Positions 10,233 to 44,667 of a stretch of 64,000 bases of DNA are shown here, piece after piece. The position numbers and the translations under genes were made by a program. Source of the DNA: Irineochytrium annulatum (taxonomy: Eukaryota; Chytridiomycota; Chytridiomycetes; Chytridiales; Chytridiaceae); assembly GCA_027600665.1 (NCBI GenBank), contig JADGJL010000001.1, forward strand, positions 310,001-374,000, read 5' to 3'. How positions within the stretch are numbered: position 1 is the stretch's first letter; every line of letters begins with the position of its first letter. The notes beneath the pieces were generated by a model. That model ran no database searches, was not told the DNA's origin, and worked only from the letters and a program-made list of their open reading frames with translations.

Positions 10233-10342
10233 ATCATCTTACAATTTAACCCATATATTTTAATTCTTCTAAACAAATGTAACGCATGATATCCAAGACT
10301 AATATCACTTAGATTATAAACCTTCCAGCATTTATTTAATAG

Positions 10343-10369
10343 AAAAAGTCTGCCTATTAGTAGGCAGAC
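10343..10369 (-). terminator. intrinsic terminator closing array A
   Basis: Perfect stem GTCTGCCTA / TAGGCAGAC (10348-10369). It reads GTCTGCCTACTAATAGGCAG on the minus strand and runs straight into TTTTT. It lies 130 bases downstream of the SEC-C gene and ends leftward transcription through the cassette array. Confidence 0.85.
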
Positions 10370-12600: not shown

Positions 12601-12633
12601 TAACAATATGTATTCTTGTTTCTTCTCAATCAT
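12553..12633 (-). CDS. 26-residue hydrophobic peptide, possible
   Basis: A very short frame (ATG at 12633, TAG at 12553) encodes MIEKKQEYIL followed by a run of Leu, Val and Ile. That is a charged N-terminus plus one membrane span. It begins immediately inside the cassette boundary. Short cassette-borne membrane peptides exist in other integrons, but there is no good ribosome binding site here and it may be chance within decaying DNA. Confidence 0.25.
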   Translation of the reverse strand: MIEKKQEYILLGLLILVVVDVIIIMN

Positions 12634-12748
12634 TCAAATGTGCCTGTATTCAATGCTTTAATAAAGATGTTTTCCAATTTTTATATTGGTTATACCGATA
12701 TTAAAGCAATTATATTCTAAGCCGCGCAGTGTGAATATTATGTTAACT
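12633..12748 (-). repeat. attC-like site A4, one end degraded
   Basis: On the plus strand the right side reads GTGAATA (12731-12737), TTAT, GTTAACT (12742-12748), identical in plan to the other sites. The left side, TTCAAATGTGCCTGTATTCAA, has lost its AAC box but keeps the CCTGTATTCA spacer-plus-L element. The right box GTTAACTGAA matches 10/10 the inverse of the 5' boundary of the 348-aa cassette at 13857-13866. Confidence 0.6.
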
Positions 12749-12773
12749 GAAGTTCCTGCCTTCATAGACTATG

Positions 12774-13820
12774 CTAATCACCATAAGTCCCTAACATATA
12801 TGCATTCATTTCCTCTATATATTTGTTGTGTAAAGGGAATTTATTACGGCACAAATCTACCAACTTATCTCTTAATGTCTGGTCTTGAATCATGTACTTA
12901 CACATATGCTCAAACTTTGCAAGTTCAATAGGTAGAGCTGGAATTTTTAGTTTCTCATATAAATGAAATAGTTCAGTAAAAACTCCAAGTGTTACTCCCA
13001 CTACATCGTCATAAACTAATTGAGCTTCTCTTTTAGTATCGTCCCTATTGAAATATTGATGGAAGTTATCATTAAACAAGTTAAAGTCTATCTGCATATA
13101 GCCATCAAAAGTATAATTCTCTTCATTCCTTGCCTTTGATAAATGATCATATTTGTTGTCAAAAAGTTCTTCATAAGTTATCTTAGTAAGTTCAAGTTCG
13201 TCATGGTCCAAGTCACAGTAAATTCTCCATGTATCATCATGCGAATTAATTCTCTCATTATCAAATATTAGATGACCCCCTTTGTTTTTTATATCTAATT
13301 TCAAGTGCATAGAATAAGAAACAATGTCAGCATCATAATCAATTTTATTGGGGTTATGTTTATTTGATAAAGTTTGATATCGCTTTGGATTTGTTATTTT
13401 AAACACATCTTCTATAAAAATAAATTTATCACTGGTAATTCGATAACTTTGAATGCCGCAAAGAGTATTAATTGCTCTTGCAAGATATAGCTTTGCATAA
13501 TAATTTGTAATCTCTATCCAATGAAGAGCTCCTGATAAATATAGATTCTTTGCTGCTAAATAGTTGTAAAATACTTTATAGAAAGAAAATAACGATTCAT
13601 GTAGCAATGTAACTCTCAAAAGTTTCATATCTTTTTCATCAAGAGGAATTATGATTTTTGTGCCATTCTTATATTTCTCAAAGAAATCTACATCTTTATT
13701 AAAATTTTCATGCATAAACTTAGGAAGATGCCATTCTCTTGGACGTGGTACACCGGCCCTAAATTCAGCATATTCTGTATCTTTGTAAAAATTAATAATA
13801 GCGTGTCTTAATGAATTCAT
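12774..13820 (-). CDS. hypothetical protein, array A cassette
   Basis: A 348-residue soluble protein rich in Tyr, Phe, Asp and Lys, starting MNSLRHAIINFYKDTEYAEF, with an AAGGAG site at normal distance. No signal peptide, no membrane segment and no motif I recognise. Central segments such as YYAKLYLARAINTLCGI look helical. It is bounded by attC-like sites on both sides and is the only gene of its cassette. The flanking boxes are perfect inverted repeats (TTCAGTTAAC / GTTAACTGAA). The function is unknown. Similarly sized helical proteins occur in phage-defence cassettes, which is only a suggestion. Confidence 0.8.
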   Translation of the reverse strand: MNSLRHAIINFYKDTEYAEFRAGVPRPREWHLPKFMHENFNKDVDFFEKYKNGTKIIIPLDEKDMKLLRVTLLHESLFSFYKVFYNYLAAKNLYLSGALHWIEITNYYAKLYLARAINTLCGIQSYRITSDKFIFIEDVFKITNPKRYQTLSNKHNPNKIDYDADIVSYSMHLKLDIKNKGGHLIFDNERINSHDDTWRIYCDLDHDELELTKITYEELFDNKYDHLSKARNEENYTFDGYMQIDFNLFNDNFHQYFNRDDTKREAQLVYDDVVGVTLGVFTELFHLYEKLKIPALPIELAKFEHMCKYMIQDQTLRDKLVDLCRNKFPLHNKYIEEMNAYMLGTYGD

Positions 13821-13859: not shown

Positions 13860-13983
13860 AGTTAACGTTCATGTATTCATGACGTCCGACGTAGTCGGAT
13901 GTGTCTGCTGAATCTACTTCCTTGGAATCCATCCGGCACACCAAGCCTCCGTGAGGAGCCGCAGCTTGAATATTATGTTAGGT
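13860..13983 (-). repeat. attC-like site A3
   Basis: Plus strand: AGTTAAC (13860-13866), GTTCATG, TATTCAT (13874-13880), 85 bases of inner sequence with GTCCGACGTAGTCGGA hairpin potential, TTGAATA (13966-13972), TTAT, GTTAGGT (13977-13983). Outer and inner boxes pair as in attC (R''/R' and L''/L'), separated by short unpaired spacers. The left box starts the 348-aa cassette. The right box ends the reverse transcriptase cassette. Confidence 0.72.
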
Positions 13984-14007: not shown

Positions 14008-15594
14008 CTAGAAGGAGTTTTTCTGTGCCCATTTCTCTATTACTTGCTCTAATAGATCTCTTTGAGTTAAACCTCTTGATTTATAATAGGGATTTCGTTC
14101 ATCCTTTGGTAGGCAACTTATTGCTACTAGAAAAGCTCTCCTGACCCAAGGATCAGAAATAATACTAAATTTGTTTTCTCTAAAATATCTATGATTTTTT
14201 GATCTTCCTAAATCCAGTATCAGCTCTCTCACTGTGAAGTTATCATGATATTTCTTTATTAATTCAGAAAAAAAATGTTTATTGTTCCATTCATCATTAT
14301 TAGAAAATAGATGCAATAACCAAGATCTATTGAATTCTAACTCACTCATAAAGCTACTTTGAAATAGGCTTAACACTTTATTTCCTATTTCATGCTTTTG
14401 TTCTTCACTATAAGATCTAACTAGTTCAAGATGATTAATAATAGTTTTAATAATAGGAAACAACTTTCTCATATTTTCTTCTGTCAATATCAAATCTGCT
14501 ACTTCAGTACTATCAAAACGTGCTAAATTTCCGATTAGAAATTTAGCAAAGCCTATATCAAAGTCATCTTTATCAAGTTCTTCTTCTAGTAATTCAAATA
14601 TGTTTAACTCATGAAGTTTTTTTATTTCTTCTTCTCCCAATAAGGAAAGATCAATTTCCCCATAGAAATCTCTACTAAACCCCAGTTTATCTAATAACTC
14701 ATAAAACTCTTCAATGACCCTATCTTTTTCTCTATCCTTATATAAATAAAGATGCTTAGAAATAAAGCTTTCAGTAGTCAAAATTTTAGTTTTTTGTTCA
14801 TTTAATTTTAAATTTAAAATATCATATAACTTTTGTGCTAAGAATGCTAACGATTTATAGGCATCATTTTCAGATTTACAAAAAAGCCGATAATCATCGA
14901 CATATCTAATAAACATAATATCATTTTCAATAAGTATCATATCGATCTCATTTAGTATAAGCTCCGCTATTGGGCGACTAAACTGAGGACCAATTGGAAG
15001 TCCTTTATGAGTCTGACTGATGTGCATAGCTTTAATTATATTAATCAAAGTCTCAGCATGAGCATTCTTTCCACTTAACCTTACACATTCGCGCAGATGG
15101 GTCTCAATATTATGTAAATATATACTCGGGTAAAAGTCCGTAATGTCTGTCATCACAACATACGAATACTCTTCAGATTCTAACAAATCTCTTGTTTTAT
15201 CTTCGTATTCCTTCCAATTGTATTTAGGATCAAACAGTGTACCATCACTTTCAGGATTTAGCCTGAATGAATACACAACATCATGTACAGCTGGTATTCT
15301 TTTGTTTTCTATTTCTTCAAATATTTCATAAATCAATGCGTTATATACTATTGAATCTAAGGGATCTAATTGAGTACATATTCTAAACCCGACATTACTC
15401 TTTGGTGTGATAGTAGTTCTATATGGTCTAACTCCATTAGAGTATACATCAGTTGTTAATAGATAATTTTTCACATCATCCCAATTCTCATTAATTGCTG
15501 CAAATTCAAAAAGCTTTGGAAAAACATAAGAATCCCCGTATTTATTAATATGCTTCAAGGACCAATTGAGAGATTCTTCTTTTAGTTTCAGCAT
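14008..15594 (-). CDS. reverse transcriptase of the defence-associated type, cassette-borne
   Basis: A 528-residue RNA-directed DNA polymerase. RT motifs are visible in order: an N-terminal motif around RICTQLDPLDSIVYNAL (about 75-90), motif A VVMTDITDFYPSIYL (about 150), motif B GLPIGPQFSRPIAE (about 202), motif C RYVDDYRLF (about 229) and motif D LKLNEQKTKIL. The catalytic Asp residues are intact. The C-terminal 240 residues are helical and repeat-like, ending in SCLPKDERNPYYKS. There is no group II intron maturase domain and no retron ncRNA is obvious. This layout fits Abi/DRT-type anti-phage reverse transcriptases. GGAGGT lies 12 bases before the ATG. It is alone between two attC-like sites. 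Confidence 0.88.
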   Translation of the reverse strand: MLKLKEESLNWSLKHINKYGDSYVFPKLFEFAAINENWDDVKNYLLTTDVYSNGVRPYRTTITPKSNVGFRICTQLDPLDSIVYNALIYEIFEEIENKRIPAVHDVVYSFRLNPESDGTLFDPKYNWKEYEDKTRDLLESEEYSYVVMTDITDFYPSIYLHNIETHLRECVRLSGKNAHAETLINIIKAMHISQTHKGLPIGPQFSRPIAELILNEIDMILIENDIMFIRYVDDYRLFCKSENDAYKSLAFLAQKLYDILNLKLNEQKTKILTTESFISKHLYLYKDREKDRVIEEFYELLDKLGFSRDFYGEIDLSLLGEEEIKKLHELNIFELLEEELDKDDFDIGFAKFLIGNLARFDSTEVADLILTEENMRKLFPIIKTIINHLELVRSYSEEQKHEIGNKVLSLFQSSFMSELEFNRSWLLHLFSNNDEWNNKHFFSELIKKYHDNFTVRELILDLGRSKNHRYFRENKFSIISDPWVRRAFLVAISCLPKDERNPYYKSRGLTQRDLLEQVIEKWAQKNSF

Positions 15595-15629: not shown

Positions 15630-15725
15630 AGCTAACGTTCCTGTATTCACGCCCCGACGTATGTCGGGTGTACGGCGGATACCAAATCAAGGACGGATGT
15701 TCGCAGCGTGAATATTATGTTCTAA
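15630..15725 (-). repeat. attC-like site A2
   Basis: 96 bp. Plus strand: AGCTAAC (15630-15636), GTTCCTG, TATTCAC (15644-15650), inner CCCCGACGTATGTCGGG hairpin, GTGAATA (15708-15714), TTAT, GTTCTAA (15719-15725). The left boundary TTCAGCTAAC starts the RT cassette and matches 9/10 the inverse of the 3' box of that same cassette at site A3. Confidence 0.75.
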
Positions 15726-15754: not shown

Positions 15755-16777
15755 TCAATCAAAAAACATTTTTATGACCATCTCCTTAGTTACGTTGTAG
15801 CCCTTTAATCGAGTATTTTCATTAGTTATATAGATATTTTTGGGTGCCAATAATATTGGGTCAAGATGGCTCGTAAGTAATTCTTTTATTTGAACATAGT
15901 CAAATTGAACTGTCACTTCATCTTTATTAGATTCGCTTGTCAATAGAAGCTCTATTCTCAAATAATCTCTATTAGTATCTATTTTCACATCCGTTTTTAG
16001 ATTATACCAATAATAATCATTAAATCCATTATAAGGTGAGTACGTAGATGAAAGATCTTGTGTTCCATCTATAATTTTTTCTGGTAGATTAATAATGTTC
16101 GAATAATAATCGTCATCTTCATTTGGATTATTTAATCCCATATAGAGCTCATTTGCAACCTCGATGTTTGTAAAAGGTAGAGGAAGCCCTATTAAAAATT
16201 GGTAAGAATCTTTATCATCCCATCTTATAATCCGCACCTTTAAAAACTGACCAACAATCACTATAGTATTAATATCGTTTTTTGTATTCCCACTTAAAAT
16301 TTCTTGTGGAGTTGGTAAATCACTAATTTTTTTAGTGTTTCCAATAAACGAAATTAACCGAATAAACAAAAAAATTGTAGAACCTACACAAATAATAAAT
16401 GACGTAGATATAATAAATTCAAGTAGTGTAGATACAGGAGGCTTGATTATCAATAAAACCATAAGAAAAACTAATGATAACATTATAAGAGAATACATAG
16501 CTGTTGATAGTATTCGTCTTGTCAGTTTACTTCCATTATTATAAATTTGATTGTAGATTGTATATTGCTCAAAAAAATGTAATTCAGCATCAATATTATA
16601 ATGAGTATTTATATATCTGGAGTATTTTGAAAGTTCCCAAAATACTTCTCTTAATTTTTGAATATTTTGTTGCATACTAAAAGAAAAGAAAATAGCTATC
16701 AATCCAACCAAGGTAGAGATCGTCGTAACCACTCCAAAAGCTATAGTTAAAAGGTTACTCAAGTTTTCTATTTGCAT
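15755..16777 (-). CDS. membrane protein, unknown, array A cassette
   Basis: A 340-residue protein. The frame opens with GTG at 16786, but the ATG at 16777 has AAGGAG eight bases upstream and is preferred. Hydrophobic helices lie at about residues 8-30 (LLTIAFGVVTTISTLVGLIA), 95-115 (MYSLIMLSLVFLMVLLII) and 123-145. The C-terminal 190 residues are soluble with beta-rich character. No known family. The plan (membrane anchor plus cytosolic domain) is common among effectors of abortive-infection systems, but nothing specific supports that. It is the only gene in its cassette. Confidence 0.8.
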   Translation of the reverse strand: MQIENLSNLLTIAFGVVTTISTLVGLIAIFFSFSMQQNIQKLREVFWELSKYSRYINTHYNIDAELHFFEQYTIYNQIYNNGSKLTRRILSTAMYSLIMLSLVFLMVLLIIKPPVSTLLEFIISTSFIICVGSTIFLFIRLISFIGNTKKISDLPTPQEILSGNTKNDINTIVIVGQFLKVRIIRWDDKDSYQFLIGLPLPFTNIEVANELYMGLNNPNEDDDYYSNIINLPEKIIDGTQDLSSTYSPYNGFNDYYWYNLKTDVKIDTNRDYLRIELLLTSESNKDEVTVQFDYVQIKELLTSHLDPILLAPKNIYITNENTRLKGYNVTKEMVIKMFFD

Positions 16778-16831
16778 TCTTATCACTCCTTAGAAAACAA
16801 ATTTTCTGTCACTAAAATTTAAGCTAATTTC

Positions 16832-16927
16832 TTTTAACGCTCCTGTATTCACGACCCAGCCCATGCTGGGTGTCCGGCGAATGCCGGATCAAGGACGTAT
16901 ATCCACAGCGTGAATATTATGTTAGTT
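16832..16927 (-). repeat. attC-like site A1
   Basis: 96 bp. Plus strand: TTTTAAC (16832-16838), GCTCCTG, TATTCAC (16846-16852), CCCAGCCCATGCTGGG hairpin, GTGAATA (16910-16916), TTAT, GTTAGTT (16921-16927). The right box with flank GTTAGTTGAA is the exact inverse of TTCAACTAAC at the attI-like junction (18272-18281), that is, the other end of the same cassette. Confidence 0.78.
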
Positions 16928-16956: not shown

Positions 16957-18234
16957 TTATTTAGATACTTCTTCACTTATACTTTCCCATACATCTAAAA
17001 CAGGTTTTAAAAAATATCCTGGATTCCCTTCAGAAATTTTCGTTTCCAAAAATTTAATGTTCCCAAAATATCTTCTCTGGAATTCGGTCATATAACTTCT
17101 GGATTTCCCATCAGAAGTTATTACAGAAACACAAAGTGCTTCCGCTTTATCTAGTGTCTCACTAACAGGAGTACCGTCCATTATTGCATCTACATCTCTA
17201 GATACCCATGCCTCATTGATATTAATTATACAAGTGGCTTTTGTTTCCTTAACATATTGAGCAAGCTCTTTCATAATTAAAAACTTATCTGATTTGTCTT
17301 CTGGAATAACAGAGCGTAACTCCCACCCTTTGTAGGGCACTTTAATAAACTGTATCCATTGGTGATACTTATCTTTTTTAAGCACTTTCAAAGCCATTTC
17401 ATTCAAAGTATCAGCAAACTTAAATGGATCATGTTTTGAACCAGTAAACTGACTAGGTATCTTGGAGAAATATCTTTTCTTAGCTGCTGATATTATTTGT
17501 TCATTCATTTTCACTGTATTCGTTTCAAATGTTCTTGTTTGAAAGTCACTTAATACTATATTTTGTGTTCTGAATGTTGCATTCATATTCATACAGCTAT
17601 ATTGTCCCGTCAGATCATCATAGGATAACGGGTGTAAGGAATCTCGGAGTGAGCATTCAATATAATTAGAACCTGCTTGTTTATGTGCATCAAGAACGAT
17701 ATCTTTAGCAAAATTAAACCCGTATGCAAGAGCATCGAGAATTTCCCAATCAGGTAGGTCTTCGGCTACCCATCTTCGTTCTACAACTGCTATACACTCT
17801 TTTAATCGATGTTCAGGAATTTCAACTTTTTCTTTGATAATACTTTTTGCCTTGTGAGCAATTATCTCAGAGGGCAAAAGCGCTGGTACATCAAACTTAT
17901 ACTCCATAAGGTTAAAATAACTATGAATTAGAACATTTGCCTGGCTTTTTGTTTCAAGATCTTTTTGATGAACGATTTTGACTCTCGCTTCATTAAGCCA
18001 CTTCATAATTGGATCAGTTTTCATTTTTGATTGCCAATTTGGATACCAAGAATCAAAGTCTATAATTTTTTCTTTTTCATTTTGAAGAGCAAAAGTCAAA
18101 TTTCTTAAAGCTTGAATGGTTGCATTGATATTTACTCTAAACCCTTCTGGATCGAAATAGTTATCATAGGCTTGGTGCCACAAACGATGTGCTTCAAGTA
18201 ATCTTTTATGTGTATAAGGAATAATACAATCCAT
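16957..18234 (-). CDS. hypothetical protein, first cassette of array A
   Basis: A 425-residue soluble protein starting MDCIIPYTHKRLLEAHRLWH, with a GGGAGG site. The N-terminal third is helical (HRLWHQAYDNYFDPEGFRVNINAT) and resembles HEPN-like or long alpha-hairpin regions only in general character. The C-terminal part contains a mixed alpha/beta region (ATCIININEAWVSRDVDAIM, with a catalytic-looking Glu/Asp pattern that I cannot assign). No membrane segment. It occupies the position directly next to the attI-like junction, which in integrons is the most recently inserted cassette. Function unknown. Confidence 0.8.
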   Translation of the reverse strand: MDCIIPYTHKRLLEAHRLWHQAYDNYFDPEGFRVNINATIQALRNLTFALQNEKEKIIDFDSWYPNWQSKMKTDPIMKWLNEARVKIVHQKDLETKSQANVLIHSYFNLMEYKFDVPALLPSEIIAHKAKSIIKEKVEIPEHRLKECIAVVERRWVAEDLPDWEILDALAYGFNFAKDIVLDAHKQAGSNYIECSLRDSLHPLSYDDLTGQYSCMNMNATFRTQNIVLSDFQTRTFETNTVKMNEQIISAAKKRYFSKIPSQFTGSKHDPFKFADTLNEMALKVLKKDKYHQWIQFIKVPYKGWELRSVIPEDKSDKFLIMKELAQYVKETKATCIININEAWVSRDVDAIMDGTPVSETLDKAEALCVSVITSDGKSRSYMTEFQRRYFGNIKFLETKISEGNPGYFLKPVLDVWESISEEVSK

Positions 18235-18274
18235 ATTAGCCTCCCAATATTAATTTATTTGTCACAATAATTTC

Positions 18275-18405
18275 AACTAACATCAAATCTATGTACTTCG
18301 TAAATAACACACATCCTACCTGATATCTGAACTACGTATATGATAACCTATGCGGTGATATTTGCGAAGAAAAATTTGGTGAAAAAGGGGGGACTATTAG
18401 GATAA
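18275..18405 (-). other. attI-like recombination junction A
   Basis: Directly downstream of the recombinase stop. It shares with the junction at 41271-41400 the block ATGTACTTCGTAAATA (18291-18306), the block ATCTGAACTACGTATATGAT and GCGAAGAAAAATTTGG. It ends in ATGTTAGTTGAAAT (minus strand), where the GTTAG box gives way to cassette sequence. Conservation between the two loci stops exactly at this box. Confidence 0.65.
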
Positions 18406-19293
18406 TCAATCTCCCAAATCCATCCGATCCAGCGGGCTTTGAATACGCTGGATATTTTTCGTAGTAACATGCGTATATCGCTGAGTTGTACGTGCACTCG
18501 TATGACCAAGTAGCTCCTGAATGTAGCGGAGGTCTGTCCCGTTTTCTAGCAAATGAGTGGCAAAGGAATGCCTTAACACATGAATACTAACCTTCTTCAC
18601 AATTCCTGCGCGTTGTCTAGCTTCTTCAAAAACCTTCTGTACGCTCCGCTCAGTAAGATGTCGATCAGAAGATTGGCCCAGAAATAGCCAACGATTGGGA
18701 CTGTATTCATCTATGTATTTCTGCACCATATCCCAGGCGAGGCTTGAAAGTAGCGTCCTCCGATCCTTTTGACCCTTTCCCTGTCTCACAATGAGTGTCT
18801 GCCTTTCAATATCCAGATAGGTGAAACGCAGACGCACAACTTCACCTACACGAAGCCCGGAAGAATAGGTCACAAACAATATGGCCTTATGTTTAGGGTT
18901 GGTTACGGATTTGAGTAATTGTGCAACTTCCTTTTCGGACATCACTTGTGGAAGCTTGGTCTGCTTCTTGGGACGAATATACTGGATATCCGTAGGATGA
19001 TGGAGCACATGTTTGCAATAGAAGCGGAGCGCGCTAATGGTCTGATTCACGCTTGAATGGGAAATTCCTCGCTCCAGCAAACCTAAACAATACATCTGAA
19101 CATTGGAAGTAGTGACATCCTTATTTTTAAGGCTAAGGCTGCTTAGAAAACGCTCGACCTGATTACAATACGCTTTGATCGTTTTGCGACTATATCCTCG
19201 TAACTTTAGTGCCTTCTGTAACGGTTCTTTGCTCCGGGGTAATCTGAACTTCATCTGGATCAAACTGGCTCGTAAACTCCTGGATGGCCGCAA
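18406..19293 (-). CDS. Xer-like tyrosine recombinase, catalytic portion (copy 1)
   Basis: The SAM-like core-binding region starts near LQKALKLRGYSRKTIKAYCNQ. The catalytic domain keeps the full set: Arg in SSGLRVGEVVRLR, Lys in VRQGKGQKDRR, HxLR in HVLRHSFATHLLENG, His in LLGHTSARTTQ and nucleophile Tyr in QRYTHVT. It ends NIQRIQSPLDRMDLGD. I see no extra helix segment before HxLR of the kind that marks IntI integrases. The first 25 or so residues of this frame (MRPSRSLRASLIQ) are out-of-frame linker sequence. The true N-terminus is the separate frame at 19190-19459. So this is a frameshifted copy that could still make a catalytic fragment. Confidence 0.85.
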   Translation of the reverse strand: MRPSRSLRASLIQMKFRLPRSKEPLQKALKLRGYSRKTIKAYCNQVERFLSSLSLKNKDVTTSNVQMYCLGLLERGISHSSVNQTISALRFYCKHVLHHPTDIQYIRPKKQTKLPQVMSEKEVAQLLKSVTNPKHKAILFVTYSSGLRVGEVVRLRFTYLDIERQTLIVRQGKGQKDRRTLLSSLAWDMVQKYIDEYSPNRWLFLGQSSDRHLTERSVQKVFEEARQRAGIVKKVSIHVLRHSFATHLLENGTDLRYIQELLGHTSARTTQRYTHVTTKNIQRIQSPLDRMDLGD

Positions 19294-19459
19294 TAGTGTA
19301 GGGTATGATCCACATTTTCTGTTTGGGTTCCCACTTTCTGCCCGTAATCTGGCGAATGCGCTGAATATATGCAGGGTTATAGGGACAACGAATATGCAAT
19401 GAATGAGTAGAACCTTTAGTTATGGTAATCTTCTTTTCCGTTGTAGTATCATCGTTCAT
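19190..19459 (-). CDS. N-terminal domain of the split recombinase (copy 1)
   Basis: An 89-codon frame with an AAAGGAGAG site. It encodes a compact domain with YNPAYIQRIRQITGRKWEP and KMWIIPYTIAAIQEFTSQFD. Related N-terminal domains precede the catalytic part in some Xer-like recombinases and are thought to contact arm or inner DNA sites. It overlaps the catalytic frame by about 100 bases. Compared with copy 2, the linker between VQITPEQ and LQKALKLRG is shorter here and the reading frame changes. A deletion has therefore split one gene of about 370 codons. Confidence 0.7.
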   Translation of the reverse strand: MNDDTTTEKKITITKGSTHSLHIRCPYNPAYIQRIRQITGRKWEPKQKMWIIPYTIAAIQEFTSQFDPDEVQITPEQRTVTEGTKVTRI

Positions 19460-19511
19460 AGGAAACTCTCCTTTGTTTGAGTCTATGTCTTTCTCCGCAA
19501 TTTTGAGAAAT

Positions 19512-19572
19512 AAAAAGGAAGGCTATCCTCATCCCAAAAAGGGAATCAGATGACCTTCCGATGCTTTCGGAA
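19512..19572 (-). promoter_or_regulatory. recombinase leader with overlapping hairpins (copy 1)
   Basis: On the minus strand TTCCGAAAGCATCGGAA (hairpin 1) is followed by GGAAGG...CCTTCC (hairpin 2) and TTTTTATTT, 55 bases before the recombinase N-terminal start. The segment TCGGAAGG is shared by both stems, so the two folds exclude each other. Stem 2 plus the T-run is a canonical terminator. The same layout occurs at 42555-42609 and, weakened, at 27497-27547. Confidence 0.6.
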
Positions 19573-25381: not shown

Positions 25382-25440
25382 TTTCATATAAAGCTTCTGT
25401 ATTCACAACCCAATGTATGCTAAGTGTCGCCATTACTTCG
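25382..25440 (-). repeat. half attC-like site
   Basis: The plus strand TTCATATAAAGCTTCTGTATTCAC, followed by an imperfect CCCAATGTATGC hairpin arm, aligns with the TTCANNTAACGTTCCTGTATTCACGACCCA half of the intact sites. The partner half (GTGAATATTATGTTA) is not found within 150 bases. The rest of the gap 25170-25569 shows nothing else recognisable. Confidence 0.5.
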
Positions 25441-27299: not shown

Positions 27300-27547
27300 T
27301 ACTAGTGCCTGAACTACGTATATATTAACCCATATTGTTACAATTGTTAAACCAAATTGGAGAATAAGGGAGATTTATTAATTTTCTCAAACCCTCATCC
27401 ATACAATCTAATGGGCTGTGAATACGCTGAATATATGCAGGGTTGCGTAGAATGCGAGTATGCAGTGGAATCTTTCATTATAGTAATAAAACAAATAGGC
27501 CGTTCTTCATCCCATAGGGATTCCGACGACCTTCCGATGCTTTTGGA
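27300..27547 (-). pseudogene. recombinase copy 3, internally deleted remnant
   Basis: Contains, in order on the minus strand, the leader hairpin region (GCATCGGAAGGTCG), codons resembling the N-terminal domain up to the IQRI motif, and then directly the last codons of the catalytic domain (IHSPLD) and the downstream ACGTATATATTAACC block. The whole catalytic domain is missing. The break lies in ATTCAGCGTATTC, a sequence present at both ends of the intact gene. Confidence 0.65.
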
Positions 27548-27615
27548 ATATATCAACTTTTAAAAGGTGAATGTACCATCATTCGCTGCAAGCGCCTAGC
27601 ACCAATAACCACCGC

Positions 27616-37786: not shown

Positions 37787-38911
37787 CTATCCGTTATTTT
37801 TCACAACCATACGATGGTTAATAATGTTCAGCTCGGGAACTGCTGTTCCATGCAGTTGAGAGATTAACATGTCCACTGCCAATTCACCCATCTGCTTCTC
37901 ATCCTGCTTAATATGAGTGAAGATGGGTTGACCCAGGTGATCGTTCAGGGAGTCGAAACAAACGATCTCGAATTCCTCCAGAGATTTCCCCATCGAGTGG
38001 ATGACTTGAGCCAGCATGGTAGCTATTAGAAATTCCGATGCGACAAATGCCTTTACATCAGGGTGTTTTTTCAAAAAATGCTTTACTGTTTCTTTATCAC
38101 TTTCAATCGCTGTTCCGTTTATGTTCTTGGGAAGGGTGCCCTTCAAGTTCGTCAATACATAATCTTTGTTCAAATTCATTCCTTCCTGGGTGAAGGCAAA
38201 CGTATATCCAAGCAGCCTTTCCTCCAATGTTGAAGTGTTCTCTTCCGGCGGAGATAAAAAGGCAATTTTTTTATGACCTTTGCTAATCAGATGACGCGTA
38301 AGATCCATGGCTGCTTTCTTATTGTCTGTATATACCGAACAAACCGGAATTCCTTTTAGATATCTATCGGCCAAAACAATTGGAAACCGATCTAATACAA
38401 GTCGGAGCAGTTCAGAATTATAGTGTTGACCATGAATGGGGGTCACGATTAATCCTTTGATGCCTAAACCAATAAATAAGTCGATCGCACGTTTTTCCTC
38501 ATCCCGATCTCCGCAAGTTCGCTTGATAACGAGTTGATAATTATGCTCAGCACTCCGCTTTTCCATCGATCTAAGAAGTTCCAGGCCAAACTCGTCAGAA
38601 AAATTCGGTATAATAAACCCGATCACCCGCTTATCGTCCTCAGGAACCAAAGTTGTTCTTACCTCTGAATAATGCTTCGGTTCTTGTCCTCCAATGATAC
38701 CATCGGCCACATATGAACCTTTTCCTTGTATTCGTTTAATAACCCCAGAATCTGCCAATTTCTCCAAAGCCTTTTTAGATGTAATACGACTGACGCCAAA
38801 TTGTTCAGCCAACTCTTTTTCAGAAGAGACCCGGTCACCTTCGTTTAAACGACCTTCTTTAATCTCTTGTACAATATAGCTATATATCTGCTCGTATAAA
38901 TGCAATTCCAC
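37787..38911 (-). CDS. GntR/LacI-type sugar repressor, AraR-like
   Basis: 374 residues, GTG start after AGGGTGG. N-terminal GntR winged helix (LYEQIYSYIVQEIKEGRLNEG; ELAEQFGVSRITSKKALEKLADSG, about 1-70) joined to a LacI-type periplasmic-binding sensor domain (VIGFIIPNFSDEFGLELLRSM, about 95 onward, to VDMLISQLHG). This fusion is the AraR architecture, so a pentose or related sugar may be the inducer, though the specificity cannot be read. It probably represses both itself and the adjacent sugar ABC operon through the TATACTAAGTATA operators. Confidence 0.92.
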   Translation of the reverse strand: MELHLYEQIYSYIVQEIKEGRLNEGDRVSSEKELAEQFGVSRITSKKALEKLADSGVIKRIQGKGSYVADGIIGGQEPKHYSEVRTTLVPEDDKRVIGFIIPNFSDEFGLELLRSMEKRSAEHNYQLVIKRTCGDRDEEKRAIDLFIGLGIKGLIVTPIHGQHYNSELLRLVLDRFPIVLADRYLKGIPVCSVYTDNKKAAMDLTRHLISKGHKKIAFLSPPEENTSTLEERLLGYTFAFTQEGMNLNKDYVLTNLKGTLPKNINGTAIESDKETVKHFLKKHPDVKAFVASEFLIATMLAQVIHSMGKSLEEFEIVCFDSLNDHLGQPIFTHIKQDEKQMGELAVDMLISQLHGTAVPELNIINHRMVVKNNG

Positions 38912-39218: not shown

Positions 39219-39362
39219 GCATAACGTTCTGATATTCACGAAACGCCCAATCCTTAGATAACTCTTATCTTAGGCTTGGGCGTTTGTTGACTGAGCTTCC
39301 TCCAAGATTATACATCTGTCAACCAAGGGCCGATAGCCCCGCTGCGTGAATACAAGATAAAT
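39219..39362 (-). repeat. attC-like site B3
   Basis: 144 bp. Plus strand: GCATAAC (39219-39225), GTTCTGA, TATTCAC (39233-39239), a long inner arm with CGCCCAATCCT and GGCTTGGGCG pairing, GTGAATA (39346-39352), then GATAAAT where GTTAGAT would be expected. The outer right box is worn, but GATAAATGAT still matches 7/10 the inverse of the 5' boundary of the phosphatase cassette. Left of it, 38955-39218 shows no gene. Confidence 0.62.
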
Positions 39363-39398
39363 GATTGATTGGCCTTCTTCGGATTTGCTATTCATAAT

Positions 39399-39977
39399 TT
39401 ATTCAACGTTTAAGTGAGTAATACAATTATATAGTTCACAATCCCATCTGAATCGGTCTTTATTTAAAATTGTTACTGATGTATTATGGAGGTGTTCTTC
39501 TGTATCGATGTGCGGAATTAGTTTCTTTAGAGTCAGTCCAATTAGTGCTCCATGACTTATTATCAATATTTTTTTGTCGGGGTGTCTTTCAGAAATGTCC
39601 ATTAGGCAATTCATTCCTCTTGTGATTATCTCAGCGTTTGGTTCTATACCAAGATCTAGTTTGGACCATCCGTATCCCCACTTACTAACTCTATCTTGTT
39701 CAGTTGTTCCCTCAATAAGACCGCAGTTCATTTCTCTTAATCGCGGGTCAGTTTTCACTTCAACATTCTTAATCCTTCCTATCATTTCTGCTGTTTCGAG
39801 TGCTCTTGATAAGTCACTTGAATAAATATAATCCCACTCCTCGTTCTCCATTCTCTTAGATAGTAATTCAGCTTGCCTTCGTCCCTCATCATTTAAAGGT
39901 ATATCAACTTGTCCCTGTGCCCTGTATTCATCATTCCAATCTGTTACTCCATGTCTTATAAGTCCTATCAATGTCAT
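39399..39977 (-). CDS. histidine phosphatase family protein, array B cassette
   Basis: 192 residues. The N-terminal LIGLIRHGVTDWN contains the RHG catalytic motif with the phospho-accepting His. Other family residues are in SSDLSRALETAEMIG, LREMNCGLIEGTTEQDR and KILIISHGALIGLTLKKL (second His). This is the size of phosphoglycerate-mutase-like, CobC-like or broad-specificity phosphatases, so the substrate is open. GAGGAAC precedes the ATG. It is the only gene in its cassette. Confidence 0.88.
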   Translation of the reverse strand: MTLIGLIRHGVTDWNDEYRAQGQVDIPLNDEGRRQAELLSKRMENEEWDYIYSSDLSRALETAEMIGRIKNVEVKTDPRLREMNCGLIEGTTEQDRVSKWGYGWSKLDLGIEPNAEIITRGMNCLMDISERHPDKKILIISHGALIGLTLKKLIPHIDTEEHLHNTSVTILNKDRFRWDCELYNCITHLNVE

Positions 39978-40029
39978 ACTTGTTCCTCTTTCATTTCATT
40001 TTATGTTTTTAGGATACTGCCGATCTTTC

Positions 40030-40151
40030 ATCTAACGTTCCTGTATTCACGACGCTTGGCGTATGCCAAGTGTGTCCGGCAGCCTCTGCTTCCCTGAAAT
40101 GCTTCAGCCGGATCGAGGGCGTATGCCCAATACGTGAATATATTGTTATCT
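40030..40151 (-). repeat. attC-like site B2
   Basis: 122 bp. Plus strand: ATCTAAC (40030-40036), GTTCCTG, TATTCAC (40044-40050), CTTGGCGTATGCCAAG hairpin, GTGAATA (40134-40140), TATT, GTTATCT (40145-40151). The left box starts the phosphatase cassette. The right box ends the SnoaL-like cassette and is the exact inverse of AGATAAC at the other end of that cassette (40622-40628). Confidence 0.77.
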
Positions 40152-40189
40152 GATTTCAGGATAATCTATGAATAACTTTCAACAATGTT

Positions 40190-40573
40190 TCAACTATGAT
40201 CTTCAATCAGTATCAACATCTTATCTTTCATTTGAAATATTGATTTCCCTTGAATTTTTAATGTTTCTCCTGCCTTCATTCCATTAGGGAGATCACTGGA
40301 CAATATTCCCTCATAATCAATGTCAACCTCTGCTTTATCTCCTGTGAAAGTAATGTTCTTTATTACTTGACGTCTGTGAGAGAATACCTCAATTGACTGC
40401 TCTGCTAATGTGCGAAATTCCTGTATCCCCTTTGTTTCCGAATTCACTTCACCTTTAGAAATGTTTCGAAAATGAATATTCTCATTCAAAACTCCTATCA
40501 TTCCATCAATGTTAAACGTGTTATATGCGCTCAGGTATTTTTCAATAAGATCTTTTAAATTTGAGTTCTCCAA
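40190..40573 (-). CDS. SnoaL/NTF2-like protein, array B cassette
   Basis: 127 residues with a probable TTG start about 11 bases after AGGAG. The fold pattern is NTF2-like: an N-terminal helix pair (LKDLIEKYLSAYNTFNIDGMIGVLNENIHF) and a curved sheet (AEVDIDYEGILSS; LKIQGKSIFQMKDKMLILIEDHS). Family members are small enzymes or ligand-binding proteins with a conical pocket, and no catalytic residue can be assigned. It is the only gene in its cassette. Confidence 0.8.
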   Translation of the reverse strand: MENSNLKDLIEKYLSAYNTFNIDGMIGVLNENIHFRNISKGEVNSETKGIQEFRTLAEQSIEVFSHRRQVIKNITFTGDKAEVDIDYEGILSSDLPNGMKAGETLKIQGKSIFQMKDKMLILIEDHS

Positions 40574-40621
40574 GTCGAATCACACTCCTAGATTTTGATA
40601 TTACATATTTGTCCTGATTTC

Positions 40622-40717
40622 AGATAACGTTCCTGTATTCACGACCCAGCTTATGCTGGGTGTCTGGCGACTGCAAGACCAAGGACGAATGTCCGCATTG
40701 TGAATATTATGTTAGGT
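40622..40717 (-). repeat. attC-like site B1
   Basis: 96 bp. Plus strand: AGATAAC (40622-40628), GTTCCTG, TATTCAC (40636-40642), CCCAGCTTATGCTGGG hairpin, GTGAATA (40700-40706), TTAT, GTTAGGT (40711-40717). It is nearly identical in its inner part to site A1, 24 kb away. The left box starts the SnoaL-like cassette; the right box ends the kinase cassette. Confidence 0.78.
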
Positions 40718-40744
40718 GATGTTCCCCTCTTCTCAAAATTAACA

Positions 40745-41233
40745 TCAACATATTATTTCCGCTATTCTTTCAATAATCTCTTCTATCCCACTTTCACTTG
40801 TATCAATAATGTTAGTATCCATATTCTCATACATTCTTAACCTCTTGATGCTTAAAGTAATTTGTTCTTCCGATCTATTATCTTGATTCATTCTTTGTCG
40901 TAATGCAGCTTCAGAACACAACAAAGTAACCTTCTTAACCTGAAAATCTAAATCACCTAAACGGTCAAGTAAACCATCTAGGATCTCTTTTCTATGAAGA
41001 ACCCAGTTGAAAATGACATAATCAAATGTAGAATTTGATAAAAAGTTTCTTAGTAAATATGTAATATTATTCTCAACCATTCGCATGTTCTCTTCATTTA
41101 CTATCCAGGGATTCATCATCCAACACCAATCACCATCTAACCATACTGCTTTATCAAGTGACTTATATAATTCTTTACAAATTGTGGTTTTTCCGACTCC
41201 CATTGTTCCGTTTATTACAATGAGTTTCTTCAT
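40745..41233 (-). CDS. P-loop kinase-like protein, first cassette of array B
   Basis: 162 residues from the ATG at 41233 (GAAGGTG site; the frame extends five codons further). Walker A is VINGTMGVGKTT. A lid-like Arg-rich segment follows (LRQRMNQDNRSEEQITLSIKRL), and a nucleoside/nucleotide-kinase-like DYVIFNWVLHRKE lies in between. It resembles the AAA_33/zeta-like small kinases that phosphorylate nucleotides, antibiotics or sugars, and I cannot fix the substrate. It lies next to the attI-like junction. Confidence 0.82.
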   Translation of the reverse strand: MKKLIVINGTMGVGKTTICKELYKSLDKAVWLDGDWCWMMNPWIVNEENMRMVENNITYLLRNFLSNSTFDYVIFNWVLHRKEILDGLLDRLGDLDFQVKKVTLLCSEAALRQRMNQDNRSEEQITLSIKRLRMYENMDTNIIDTSESGIEEIIERIAEIIC

Positions 41234-41270
41234 TGAATACACCTTCATTTTATAGATTTAGGGGAATTTC

Positions 41271-41400
41271 AGCTAACATCTAATTTATGTACTTCGTAAA
41301 TACCACACTTCCAAAGTAATATCTGAACTACGTATATGATAACCTATGAGGCGATATATGCGAAGAAAAATTTGGTGAAAAAGGGAGAGATTTGAGATAC
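41271..41400 (-). other. attI-like recombination junction B
   Basis: Shares with 18275-18405 the blocks ATGTACTTCGTAAATA (41287-41302), ATCTGAACTACGTATATGAT and GCGAAGAAAAATTTGG, and the stop-codon region of the recombinase. On the minus strand it ends in GATGTTAGCTGAAAT, after which the two loci are unrelated. Confidence 0.65.
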
Positions 41401-42141
41401 TCAATCTCCCATGTCCACACCATCCAGTGGACTCTGAATACGCTGAATATTTTTCGTGCTCACATGCGTATATCGTTGTGTTGTTTGTGCACTCGTATGA
41501 CCAAGAAGCTCCTGAATATAGCACAGGTCTGTTCCATTTTCCAGCAAATGTGTAGCGAAAGAGTGCCCCAAAGCATGAATGCTGCATTTTATTACAATAC
41601 CCGCTCTTTGTCTAGCTTCTTCAAAAACCTTTTGTACACTGCGCTCCGTAAGATGTCGATCTGAAGACTGTCCCGGAAACAACCAACGATCGGTTTTATA
41701 TTCGGCGATGTACTTCTGTACAATCTCCCAAGCAAGATGGGAGAGAAGAGTTCTTCGATCCTTTTGACCTTTTCCCTGCCTTACGATAATGGTCTGACGC
41801 TCAATGTCCAGATCACTACAGCGTAGACGAACGACTTCGCCGACACGAAGCCCTGCCGAATAGGTTAGATAAAGAATTGTTTTGTGTTTGAGATTAGTCA
41901 CAGTTTTCAGCAATTGGGTGACTTCTTTTTCGGACATGACATTGGGCAACTTCTTTTGTTTTTTAGGACGTATATATTGAAACTCGGCAGGATGAAGTAA
42001 CACATGTTTACAATAGAATCGGATCGCACTAATCGTCTGATTTACACTGGAATGGGAGACTCCTCGCTCAAGCAATCTCAAACAATATGTCTGGACATGA
42101 GATGCATGAATTTCTGTATCGATCTGAGGAAGACTGGTCAC
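41401..42141 (-). pseudogene. Xer-like recombinase copy 2, catalytic part
   Basis: Homologous throughout to copy 1 at 18406-19293, ending NIQRIQSPLDGVDMGD. Box I SAGLRVGEVVRLR, Lys loop GKGQKDRR and Tyr QRYTHVS are kept, but the box II motif is HALGHSF where copy 1 has HVLRHSF, so the conserved catalytic Arg is replaced by Gly (AGG to GGG). The frame is also separated from its N-terminal domain: after LQQALKLRG the sequence jumps to KAYCNQ through a missing stretch of about 17 bases (lost YSRKTI codons). It is most likely inactive. Confidence 0.82.
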
Positions 42142-42169
42142 AAATCGTTCAATCTGATTACAGTATGCT

Positions 42170-42493
42170 TTACCCTCTCAATTTTAGAGCTTGTTGCAAC
42201 TCATCTCTTCTCCATTGTGTTTTCTCTCCATGTAACTTCCATTTTCTCAATATATCACTCTCCACCCACAGCTCCGGGGAAATCTCTACATCTCGCGCAT
42301 CAAAGTGCTTTGTAAACTCCTGAAGAGATGTGTCTGAATAGGGGATGACCCAACGTTTCGTGTCAGGCTCCCACCTTCTTCCTGTTACCTGACGAATGCG
42401 CTGGATATGCACCGTATTATACGGAATTTGCACATACAACGTATCATCAGAACCTTTGGTTAAAATGATGGTGTTTTCTGCTTTATCTTTCAT
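42170..42493 (-). pseudogene. recombinase copy 2, N-terminal domain and linker
   Basis: The frame encodes the same N-terminal domain as copy 1 (HIQRIRQVTGRRWEPDTKRW; SLQEFTKHFDARDVEI), then a linker of about 35 residues (ESDILRKWKLHGEKTQWRRD) that copy 1 lacks, then LQQALKLRG and a premature TAA caused by the 17-base loss. Copies 1 and 2 together imply an ancestral recombinase of roughly 370-390 residues. The start is placed at the ATG at 42493. Confidence 0.72.
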
Positions 42494-42554
42494 AAAAACT
42501 CTCACTTCAGCTTAATTGGATTTATGAGTTCTATAAAATTAAAAAAATAAAAAA

Positions 42555-42609
42555 GGAAGATCATCTTCATCCCGTAAGGGAATCTAGTGATCTTCCGATG
42601 CTTTCGGAA
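42555..42609 (-). promoter_or_regulatory. recombinase leader with overlapping hairpins (copy 2)
   Basis: The 9-bp stem GGAAGATCA / TGATCTTCC (42555-42563 with 42588-42596) and the adjacent TTCCGA / TCGGAA stem (42593-42609) share the bases TTCC. On the minus strand a long T-rich tract follows, then the recombinase start. Differences from copy 1 keep stem pairing (A-T pairs here where copy 1 has G-C). Confidence 0.6.
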
Positions 42610-42624
42610 ATATGGTCGCTGCAC

Positions 42625-44667
42625 CTACATGGCAGCGGCTTCTTCTCCCAGCGGCAGCATGTAATACTGCGCCTGCTGCCCTTCGTGCTGCTGGTACACA
42701 ACGACCAGCAGCGTCCGGCCTTTCGCGGCAAGCGGGCTGGCGCCAGCTAGCACACGCTCAAGCCGGAACGGAAGCAAATCCAGTACGGTGTGCTTCTGCA
42801 GTTCCTTTTCGCCGAGACCAAGGTCGGCGAAAGCCCGGGCACCCATGACCGTCTGTGCGGTCATGGCCGAGGTCATCGGCAACGCACGCGAAGCGTTGCC
42901 GTCTTCCCCGTCCGCCGCTCCATCCGCGGCGGACCCTGTTGCGTCGCCCGAAGTGAGCGACGCTGCACCCCCGGCATCGCTGCCGATCACACCCGCCGCA
43001 TCTGCGGCAGAGTCTTCTCCGGCAGCAGCCGAACTTGCCACAGCGGCACTCGGACCCGTGCCGCTACTTTCCAGCCATGCCGTGCCAGCGGCACCGGCAA
43101 CACGTGGCAGACGAACGTCTTCCGGACGTTCAGCCAACGTTTTCATATAACCCGCCCACTGGTCTTTCTGGAGCGGATCTTCCCACCAGATTTTGCGTGG
43201 TTTGTACTTGTGGCCGAGGAAATAGTCCAGCTTCATCAGGCCAAGCACGACATCCATATGCGGCGTGTTCCGCGACTCCAGGAAGCTGTGCAGACGCGTG
43301 AACAGATCCTCCAGCTGGTGACCGATCTTCTGCCAACCCTGCCCCTCCCAGTAATCCCCGAATGCCTGAAAGAAATCAAACGGCGAATTGAACTCCTGCT
43401 CCATCAGATACTTCAGCGTGTGATCCATCCGGTGTGCGTTCCAGTATTTCTCCAATACATCCTCCAGCCGCTTCAAGCGCACGATGTCGCTAAACGGCAG
43501 CACATCACTACCCAGAATCTCATACGGCGCGTGATCCATATACGTATAGTTGTACTTCTCCGCATCCAGACGCAGACCCGTACCACGCAGCATTTTGAGG
43601 AATCCGAGCTGAAGCTCTTCCGGCCCCAGGGCAAATACATCGTTAAACGTCTTGCGGAACGTATTGTAATCTTCCTCTGGCAGTCCGGCGATGAGATCCA
43701 GATGCTGGTCGATCTTGCCACTGGCTTTGACTTTGTTGACGGTCCGGCTCAGCTTGGTAAAGTTCTGGCGGCGTTTCACCAGTTCATTCGTCGGATCATT
43801 CGTGGATTGAACCCCGATCTCGAAGCGGAATGTGCCCGGCGGCGCATTCTCTGCCAGATAATCCAGTACCTCGGGACGCATAATGTCTGCCGTAATTTCA
43901 AACTGGAACACCGTCCCCTGATGATTCTCGATCAGGAATTTGAACATTTCGAGCGCATAATCCCGCTTGATGTTAAACGTCCGATCCACAAACTTGATCA
44001 GCTTCGCACCCTTCTCAATCAGGTACAGAATATCCGACTTCGTCCGCTCAATATCGTAATACCGCACGCCGACCTCAATACTGGACAGACAGAACTGACA
44101 ACTGAACGGACAGCCCCGGCTGGTCTCAAAATAAACCACACGTTTCCCGAGGTCGGGAATATCCTCTTCAAATCGGTGCGGTGACGGCAGATCGTTCAGA
44201 TCCGCTTTCGGGCGTCCTGGCATGAGAATAACCTCTTCCCCTTTGCGATACGCCAGTCCATAGACAAAGTGGAACTTCTTGCTTCCTTCCAGCTCCATCA
44301 ACAGCTGATGCAGCGTCTCTTCCCCTTCACCCATCACGATGAAATCGACATTGGGAATTCGGTTCATCCAATATTCCGTGTCGTAGGACACTTCCGGCCC
44401 GCCCAGCAAAATTTTCACGTCAGGCATAACCTTTTTCAGATTATCAATGACCTTAATCGTCTCTTCAATGTTCCAGATGTAACACGAGAACCCAATCACG
44501 TCCGCGCCGCGCTGGTATAGATCAGACACAATGTTCATGACTGGATCTTTGATCGTATACTCCGCCAGATCAATATCAAAATCCTTCTCACTGTACGCCT
44601 TCAGACAACGCAAGGCCAAGGAGGTATGGATGTATTTTGCATTTAATGTAGAAAGAATAACCTTCAT
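42625..44667 (-). CDS. B12-binding-domain radical SAM protein
   Basis: 680 residues. N-terminal cobalamin-binding-like domain (MKVILSTLNAKYIHTSLALRCL; ADVIGFSCYIWNIEETIKVID), then the radical SAM core with the 4Fe-4S motif CPFSCQFC (about 185) and GVQSTNDPTNELVKRRQN. A DUF4080-like region follows. Between about residues 560 and 625 there is an Ala/Gly/Ser/Asp-rich low-complexity insertion (SSAAAGEDSAADAAGVIG). Such enzymes modify unknown substrates by radical chemistry. It is preceded by AAAGG and is a single gene. GC is clearly higher at its 3' end. Confidence 0.92.
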   Translation of the reverse strand: MKVILSTLNAKYIHTSLALRCLKAYSEKDFDIDLAEYTIKDPVMNIVSDLYQRGADVIGFSCYIWNIEETIKVIDNLKKVMPDVKILLGGPEVSYDTEYWMNRIPNVDFIVMGEGEETLHQLLMELEGSKKFHFVYGLAYRKGEEVILMPGRPKADLNDLPSPHRFEEDIPDLGKRVVYFETSRGCPFSCQFCLSSIEVGVRYYDIERTKSDILYLIEKGAKLIKFVDRTFNIKRDYALEMFKFLIENHQGTVFQFEITADIMRPEVLDYLAENAPPGTFRFEIGVQSTNDPTNELVKRRQNFTKLSRTVNKVKASGKIDQHLDLIAGLPEEDYNTFRKTFNDVFALGPEELQLGFLKMLRGTGLRLDAEKYNYTYMDHAPYEILGSDVLPFSDIVRLKRLEDVLEKYWNAHRMDHTLKYLMEQEFNSPFDFFQAFGDYWEGQGWQKIGHQLEDLFTRLHSFLESRNTPHMDVVLGLMKLDYFLGHKYKPRKIWWEDPLQKDQWAGYMKTLAERPEDVRLPRVAGAAGTAWLESSGTGPSAAVASSAAAGEDSAADAAGVIGSDAGGAASLTSGDATGSAADGAADGEDGNASRALPMTSAMTAQTVMGARAFADLGLGEKELQKHTVLDLLPFRLERVLAGASPLAAKGRTLLVVVYQQHEGQQAQYYMLPLGEEAAAM

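Follow-up and report, generated by a model that had tools for sequence, protein, structure and literature searches.

Two decayed gene arrays as a probable example of an integron-like cassette system of the Paenibacillus family

A 64,000-nucleotide stretch of contig JADGJL010000001.1 (positions 310,001 to 374,000 of the forward strand; assembly GCA_027600665.1, deposited as Irineochytrium annulatum), referred to here as the window, contains two arrays, A and B, in which a tyrosine recombinase gene is followed on the same strand by a series of genes, each closed by a site. This layout raises the question of whether genes have been captured here in the manner of an integron, and with what kind of enzyme. 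The accessible part of PMC9024848 describes integrons as extremely rare in Firmicutes, where IntegronFinder 2.0 detected one complete integron (Limnochorda pilosa) and a few CALIN (attC clusters without an integron integrase, a term of that program). The assembly comprises 26.9 Mb over 1082 contigs, and since this far exceeds one Paenibacillus genome, it is probably a mixture; the nearest named relatives of the window recombinases come from Paenibacillus. Comparison with related loci makes it highly probable that the window arrays are decayed local representatives of a system by which the Paenibacillus family captures gene cassettes. This system works like an integron, yet it fails the IntI-based definition, for which the part of PMC9668308 consulted is the source: its recombinase lacks the IntI insert and lies outside the IntI clade, and it is therefore not an IntI integron.

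Layout and exchange of the cassettes

Array B occupies 42505 to 39222 on the minus strand and consists of the recombinase gene, an attI-like junction and three single-gene cassettes, a site closing each of them. Array A follows the same plan from 19459 to 12640, also on the minus strand, with four cassettes, and remnant C, a gutted recombinase copy, sits between the two (Table 1). The segments 18269-18389 of array A and 41265-41385 of array B are 90% identical. A preliminary description of array B had proposed a tyrosine recombinase followed by three unrelated genes with similarly built sites at their ends, and the gene order is borne out by the minus-strand coordinates and the Pfam matches (Phage_integrase, AAA_18, SnoaL_2 and His_Phos_1). 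The seven sites that it counted were all recovered, four in array A and three in array B, and the common plan is recognisable in those of array B, with B3 degenerate in that it lacks the TAAC outer box and has a variant form of the spacer. The search with a covariance model of the sites, which it had suggested, located arrays adjoining the recombinase in genomes across the Paenibacillus family, supporting its view of an integron-like layout served by a Xer-like enzyme.

A weight matrix trained on 150 matches, the window's own among them, was scanned over 42 sources (40 stretches fetched beside recombinases, the window and L008). The scan, which overlooks both degenerate terminal sites of the window (A4 and B3), found 327 sites, with 325 on the recombinase strand and two on the opposite strand in L149; up to 17 sites lay beside a recombinase, a 2-kb contig end (L148) had none, and base-shuffled DNA (262,610 bases from 11 of the 42 sources) yielded 0 sites. 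Intervals of at most 4 kb between sites (n = 272) had a median of 866 bp, and their longest open reading frame (ORF) was on the array strand in 230 and on the other strand in 41, with none of 50 codons in one. Where it lay on the array strand, the median gap from stop codon to site was 37 nt, and the median GC content of the cassettes was 0.358. As in integrons, the cassettes are thus mostly single-gene units in one orientation, each closed by a site. A primary recombination site also adjoins the recombinase gene: the attI-like junction is conserved in 12 aligned sequences (both window arrays and 10 fetched loci picked where the junction was plain to see), with the same GTTA and then GAAA at its end.

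Evidence that the cassettes move as units was sought in shared pairs, defined as matches covering at least 80% of the longer cassette at 80% identity or more. Among 38 such pairs, 30 had both flanks unrelated, five had one and three had neither, at a flank cut-off of 0.7 that was set after unrelated flanks averaged 0.61 identity; the number of isolated pairs depends on this cut-off (3/38 at 0.6 against 30/38 at 0.7). At the left edge of the 30 pairs, the three bases after GTTA agreed in 93-100%, compared with 34-43% in unrelated cassettes, while at the right edge the agreement at the same three bases fell to 73, 27 and 33%, which places the probable exchange point within CGTTA. One pair from two genomes was 99.8% identical over 620 bases, and the whole SnoaL cassette B2 was 95-96% identical to cassettes in four genomes (G080, G119, G129 and G151). 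On comparative grounds, cassettes therefore appear to be exchanged as units with the crossover at the site. Three of the 38 pairs were copies inside a single source, L140, where three near-identical 287-bp cassettes, two of them adjacent, occupy 2588-3161 and 10071-10357 in array orientation.

The comparison of gene content at corresponding loci, also suggested in the preliminary description, revealed the same flanking genes around units that differ in number and kind. A radical-SAM-like gene (window 42625-44667) had a match in 18/18 genomes tested, no more than 0.7 kb from a recombinase copy in 15, and a regulator gene (37787-38911) had one in 11/18; in six of those 11 genomes and in the window it lay at most 26 kb downstream of the array. 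The remaining five (G095, G099, G100, G133 and G153), where the regulator was more than 50 kb off, lay on the opposite side or belonged to a different contig, were left out. The seven loci between the same flanking genes spanned gaps of 2.5, 5.8, 7.4, 17.4, 23.3, 25.6 and 25.9 kb and held 2 to 10 scanned sites each (B3 being missed by the scan), and 33 of their 49 cassettes were found in one locus only. A common run of cassettes in the same order was shared by G135 and G136, as expected of kin.

Folding of the cassette sites

Single-strand folding gave z scores of -2.7, -4.2 and -8.1 for the sites of array B and -4.0, -2.1, -2.3 and -0.3 for those of array A. The commonest class of site measures 90 nt (89/327), and its proposed structure comprises an outer TAAC/GTTA stem, a 4/7-nt bubble, an 8-bp stem and three ATNC-loop hairpins. 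Across 81 sites of this class (two of 83, near copies from L140, were left out), 95.6% of the pairs were standard and 148 cells had changed on both sides; the covariation score of 0.196 compared with 0.031-0.065 when the partners were slid, and 0/500 shuffles reached it. Compensatory changes were present in all three hairpins, and in a scan of all column pairs the seven highest-ranked were hairpin pairs or such pairs displaced by one base. Little can be concluded on pairing from the outer boxes and the greater part of the 8-bp stem, which were nearly invariant. The attC outer boxes of integrons have the consensus RYYYAAC and GTTRRRY. The present sites depart from it, keeping AAC and GTTA with the next base mostly T (A6 consensus).

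Mismatches on the gene strand were also unevenly distributed. A.C exceeded G.T in the 81 sites (69 against 39, p 0.005), in the anchor stems of 320 sites (81 against 48, p 0.005) and in their inner hairpins (55 against 34, p 0.03), although these p values are optimistic, as the test counts related sites as independent, the sets overlap and the outer boxes hardly vary. The excess points to the pattern expected if the bottom strand folds as DNA. Judged from the sequences, the sites would therefore be one-strand folds with R'', L'', L' and R' boxes, and a single-stranded substrate for the recombinase seems likely.

The best-placed alternative is that the units are mobile and the recombinase acts in a Xer-like way on a duplex core (TATTCAC/GTGAATA with GTTA), the hairpins serving, for example, transcription termination. 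The near-invariance of the anchor sequences agrees with such an action, as does the attI-like junction, which by eye resembles an imperfect inverted repeat, and the enzyme lacks the insert that, in the available part of PMC7790495, is said to have given IntI its single-strand activity. Against duplex recombination stand the compensatory changes in all three hairpins, the mismatch bias indicating one folded DNA strand and the asymmetric bubble, which is as in attC, and we regard it as unlikely.

In the integron-like mechanism that we favour, a dedicated tyrosine recombinase would join the attI-like site, just past its own stop codon, with the terminal attC-like site of a cassette. The cassette would be the unit from TTA to CG, with the crossover inside CGTTA, and its site would most likely act as a folded single strand, the bottom one, taking in the commonest class the form described above. 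New cassettes would enter beside the recombinase, most genes sharing its direction, and would probably be transcribed from the recombinase side.

The recombinase among IntI and Xer

Intact relatives of the window recombinases have about 370 residues, with an N-terminal weakly HARP-like domain, a SAM-like domain and a tyrosine-recombinase domain. The HARP-like reading comes from weak Pfam matches (11/40 relatives at E <= 0.1, the best 1.9e-4; 20.1 and 17.6 bits for the two window pieces against a cut-off of 25), and this extra domain may aid the binding of folded DNA. The additional domain around patch III that is specific to IntI was absent. The IntI model TIGR02249 gave 197-210 bits in seven intact relatives, below its cut-off of 265 and in two pieces around the missing insert, and 413-485 bits in a single piece for nine real IntI rows. 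Likewise, the distance from GKGxxR to HxxR was 66 residues in the Paenibacillus-family recombinase and 106-107 in 8/9 IntI rows measured. In the tree, IntI formed its own clade (100/100) and the Paenibacillus-family recombinases another (100/99), so that the latter fall outside IntI.

These results make it very unlikely that the arrays are a true IntI integron acquired from elsewhere, with a diverged IntI and ordinary attC sites. Such an origin would fit the layout, which has recombinase, attI, cassettes and AAC/GTT-core sites in common with IntI integrons, as well as the C-terminus SPL, found also in IntI4. Some relatives are named 'site-specific tyrosine recombinase/integron integrase' by NCBI, but this name belongs to the XerA-type model NF040815. 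A tree uniting the group and IntI as sisters was not rejected (p-AU 0.24), and because of this the line may be either of parallel origin or a survivor from before the insert. Among the nearest outside relatives in the tree, at weak support, was a gene on an archaeal contig (L010, a metagenome-assembled genome (MAG) of Undinarchaeales) that ends just past it.

The XerA-type and XerC/XerD models were the best-scoring profiles, and these enzymes also have no IntI insert. Five of the seven intact relatives were at or over the 220-bit cut-off of NF040815, one of them exactly, while the other two and both window pieces were below it; with the XerC/XerD models all seven reached 187-208 bits, far below cut-offs of 330-335, and two genomes (G138 and G387) hold other, better XerD-like genes. 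XerA-type and XerC/XerD enzymes are known for resolving chromosome dimers, at one site and with no known cassette arrays. In pdif modules, too, tyrosine-recombinase sites flank gene units; these modules are moved by the host XerC/XerD at short duplex dif-like sites and are not known to carry a recombinase or attI of their own.

Sedentary chromosomal integrons are alike in their recombinase with adjacent attI, their one-strand array of mostly single-gene cassettes, the existence of array-only clusters, and folded sites at the cassette ends whose outer boxes are AAC/GTT and whose bubble is asymmetric. In contrast to them, the Paenibacillus-family system has an enzyme of a separate clade with no IntI insert and an extra N-terminal domain, a host family in Bacillota, the recombinase on the cassette strand with attI past its 3' end, and a commonest site class ending in three ATNC-loop hairpins.

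Occurrence, decay and relatives of the arrays

The family set comprised 394 genomes of the family of Paenibacillus sp. NFR01 (G001), taken as Paenibacillaceae. A recombinase match at E <= 1e-70 was found in 117 of them. The covariance model, built from six window sites including B1 and B2, matched 253 at E <= 1e-3 (with at most eight candidates scored per genome), and in an order-wide draw 120/392 genomes matched at E <= 1e-8, with G461 alone outside the family set. At E <= 1e-3 a site was present in 114/117 recombinase genomes and in 139/277 others, a comparison in which hits near the threshold may have arisen by chance and the model is biased towards close kin. At E <= 1e-8, 79 genomes had both, 38 the recombinase only, 66 the site only and 211 neither (odds ratio 6.6).

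The preliminary description would have abandoned its proposal if sites occurred with no recombinase nearby, and this is partly the case in the 66 genomes with a strong site only; yet 15 of 18 such genomes checked carry recombinase pieces (at least 46% identity), located less than 9 kb from a listed site in nine (G082, G089, G104-G108, G148 and G377), while the search of these 18 found no pieces in G096, G098 and G378. One genome, G387, has 31 consecutive same-strand sites in about 23.5 kb (L177 and L178, G387:C1:3486525-3510036) with no recombinase hit nearby, its sole hit lying 2 Mb away. Such arrays far from a recombinase are also typical of CALIN, from which they differ in that the sites belong to another recombinase family and that most of the genomes checked keep its remnants. 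Static structured repeats between genes (RNA terminators or REP-like elements), with the recombinase as a bystander, would account for the strong hairpins at gene ends, for remote clusters such as that of G387 and for the weak-threshold sites in genomes without a recombinase hit, but they are the least probable explanation of all, given the unit boundaries, the units common to unrelated neighbours, the attI adjoining the recombinase, a mismatch bias running counter to what an RNA of the gene strand would be expected to show, and the presence of a site, weak hits included, in nearly all recombinase genomes.

Several observations weigh against the integron-like reading. The longest ORF opposes the array strand in 41/272 intervals, the last site of array A folds no better than shuffles, and the strand test is subject to the dependence among sites described above. 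At strong thresholds, site and recombinase occur apart in 66 and 38 genomes, the enzyme is without the insert to which the single-strand activity of IntI has been attributed, and the recombinase genes of both window arrays are broken. Homologous recombination could account for part of the sharing, though 30 pairs lack a related flank. Finally, recombination itself, and its catalysis by the Paenibacillus-family recombinase, are what we infer from these comparisons.

The broken state of the array B enzyme had escaped the preliminary description. Its gene is a pseudogene in two pieces, in which HALGHSFA replaces HxLRHSFA; with the gene interrupted and the HxxR arginine lost, array B is therefore a relic. 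The recombinase of array A is also split, over two frames, and its catalytic piece retains the GLRVGE, GKGQKDR and HVLRHSFA motifs. The window copies are thus relics or dependent on another enzyme, and the arrays are probably frozen unless another recombinase copy acts in trans. Decay of the recombinase with survival of the array seems common, and in G150 the recombinase at the same-flank locus is itself broken.

Table 1. Features of arrays A and B and of remnant C in the window
Feature	Coordinates	Strand	Evidence
Array B recombinase, N-terminal piece (weakly HARP-like domain and linker)	42170..42505	-	77.6% to residues 1-107 of intact P0012; HARP E 0.00046, 20.1 bits against cut-off 25 (Pfam)
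Array B recombinase, part of SAM-like and catalytic domain	41401..42141	-	Phage_integrase E 1.8e-38; 92.7% to P0012 residues 124-369
Array B attI-like junction, end GATGTTAGCTGAAAT	41266..41308	-	kept after recombinase in 12 aligned sequences
Cassette B1 gene, P-loop kinase-like	40745..41248	-	AAA_18 E 1.9e-16 (Pfam)
Site B1, attC-like, 90 nt	40625..40714	-	cmsearch E 1.7e-20 (in training set); weight-matrix scan
Cassette B2 gene, SnoaL-like	40190..40573	-	SnoaL_2 E 3.3e-07 (Pfam)
Site B2, 116 nt	40033..40148	-	cmsearch E 1.2e-15 (in training set); weight-matrix scan
Cassette B3 gene, histidine phosphatase	39399..39977	-	His_Phos_1 E 7.3e-47 (Pfam)
Site B3, terminal, degenerate, no TAAC outer box	about 39222..39360	-	fold z -8.1; not picked up by weight-matrix scan
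Array A recombinase, N-terminal piece	19190..19459	-	71% to P0001 residues 1-76
Array A recombinase, SAM-like and catalytic piece, other frame	18406..19293	-	91% to P0001 residues 95-371; Phage_integrase E 6.7e-40
Array A attI-like junction	18271..18312	-	junction alignment
Cassette A1 gene, no Pfam or PADLOC match	16957..18234	-	
Site A1, 90 nt	16835..16924	-	cmsearch E 8.6e-21; weight-matrix scan
Cassette A2 gene, no Pfam or PADLOC match	15755..16786	-	
Site A2, 90 nt	15633..15722	-	cmsearch E 1.7e-20; weight-matrix scan
Cassette A3 gene, reverse transcriptase, DRT8 defence model	14008..15594	-	RVT_1 E 1.4e-12; PADLOC Drt8 E 9.8e-144
Site A3, 118 nt	13863..13980	-	cmsearch E 2.1e-15; weight-matrix scan
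Cassette A4 gene, no PADLOC match	12774..13820	-	
Site A4, terminal, degenerate	12640..12757	-	cmsearch match 12621-12761, E 4.6e-11; fold z -0.3; missed by weight-matrix scan
Remnant C: recombinase module, two ends kept, middle gone	27309..27571	-	match to recombinase modules
Half site, probably from remnant C	25382..25440	-	repeat family D3

A repeated stretch containing an inverted repeat precedes the recombinase in A, C and B (19499-19572, 27516-27571 and 42536-42609, respectively); in array B the inverted repeat reads GGAAGATCA...TGATCTTCC on the minus strand, followed by a T-run. The stretch may serve the module as a terminator or attenuator. A promoter scan of 41100-42700 gave five matches against 3.9 in shuffles, about chance level, and a LexA-type box gave 16 matches at two or fewer mismatches against 19.4 expected, none standing out. 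At gathering thresholds the window had no match to any Rfam family. Two other contigs of the assembly carry additional sequences that partly match the site's right end (G000:C547:69326-69343 and G000:C731:15910-15927, with 1 and 2 mismatches), and a defence-type gene, the DRT8-model reverse transcriptase, rides as a single-gene cassette in array A. Regarding possible vectors, no relative was found on viral contigs with patterns reaching close kin only, and since all recombinase matches on plasmids (84 records, E <= 1e-50) and phages (4 records, E <= 1e-40) were below 60% identity, the sequences give no sign of a plasmid or phage vector.

Outside the Paenibacillus family, related recombinases stand at the head of arrays of spaced repeats that differ in sequence, with 11 copies in Flavobacterium enshiense (L022, 11600-20200) and 11, some of them with GTGTAAACG/CGTTTACAC arms, in Rufibacter (L028, 11800-20500); the longest ORF was on the array strand in 9/10 intervals of the former, the tenth having none, and in 10/10 of the latter. 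A Spirochaetota locus (L013, 11014-12000) presents by eye a recombinase, an attI-like junction, one methyltransferase-like gene and an attC-like site that shares the plan and differs in its arms, in that order, the site being hit by the model at E 0.004. A k-mer search of 43 other loci found no downstream repeat in 39, although it is insensitive, being blank also in 2/6 Paenibacillus-family control arrays (L145 and L158). Weaker Bacteroidota cases have 4 repeats each (L032 and L048). Other loci have their repeats upstream of a related recombinase, namely a Firmicutes MAG contig (L034, 500-4750; five around GTTTAGCCTGTTGTT) and one in Oceanirhabdus (L025, 2700-8800; four long ones, unlike attC sites). 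With some hesitation, we lean towards the view that cassette integrons exist outside IntI, in which an insert-less Xer-like clade recombines folded single-strand sites, perhaps via its own DNA-binding N-terminal domain. This clade would represent a second integron lineage that either arose in parallel to IntI or survives from before the insert, and that would include Bacteroidota and Spirochaetota as well as the Paenibacillus family, with sites specific to each lineage.

The preliminary description knew of no family in Bacilli using such an enzyme, in agreement with a literature search in which no description of the system was found, preprints being outside its scope and subscription journals thinly covered. 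The parts available of PMC9024848, PMC9668308, PMC7790495, PMC8138268, PMC2426708, PMC8352920, PMC4909258 and PMC3382206 contain no description of it; in those of PMC4909258, Paenibacillus occurs as a low-identity hit of ORFs, and in those of PMC3382206 as one isolate in a list. The survey methods in the accessible part of PMC9668308 demand that the integrase match the IntI-specific domain, and an insert-less enzyme therefore goes uncounted. The Paenibacillus-family system looks like an unrecognised bacterial way of collecting and shuffling foreign genes. If it is active, it would offer a direct test of the view, expressed in the part of PMC7790495 at hand, that acquisition of the I2 helix gave integrases single-strand recombination, because folded sites seem to be used here by an enzyme without that helix. 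A widespread bacterial family would then own a reservoir of cassettes, including the defence-type gene in the window.

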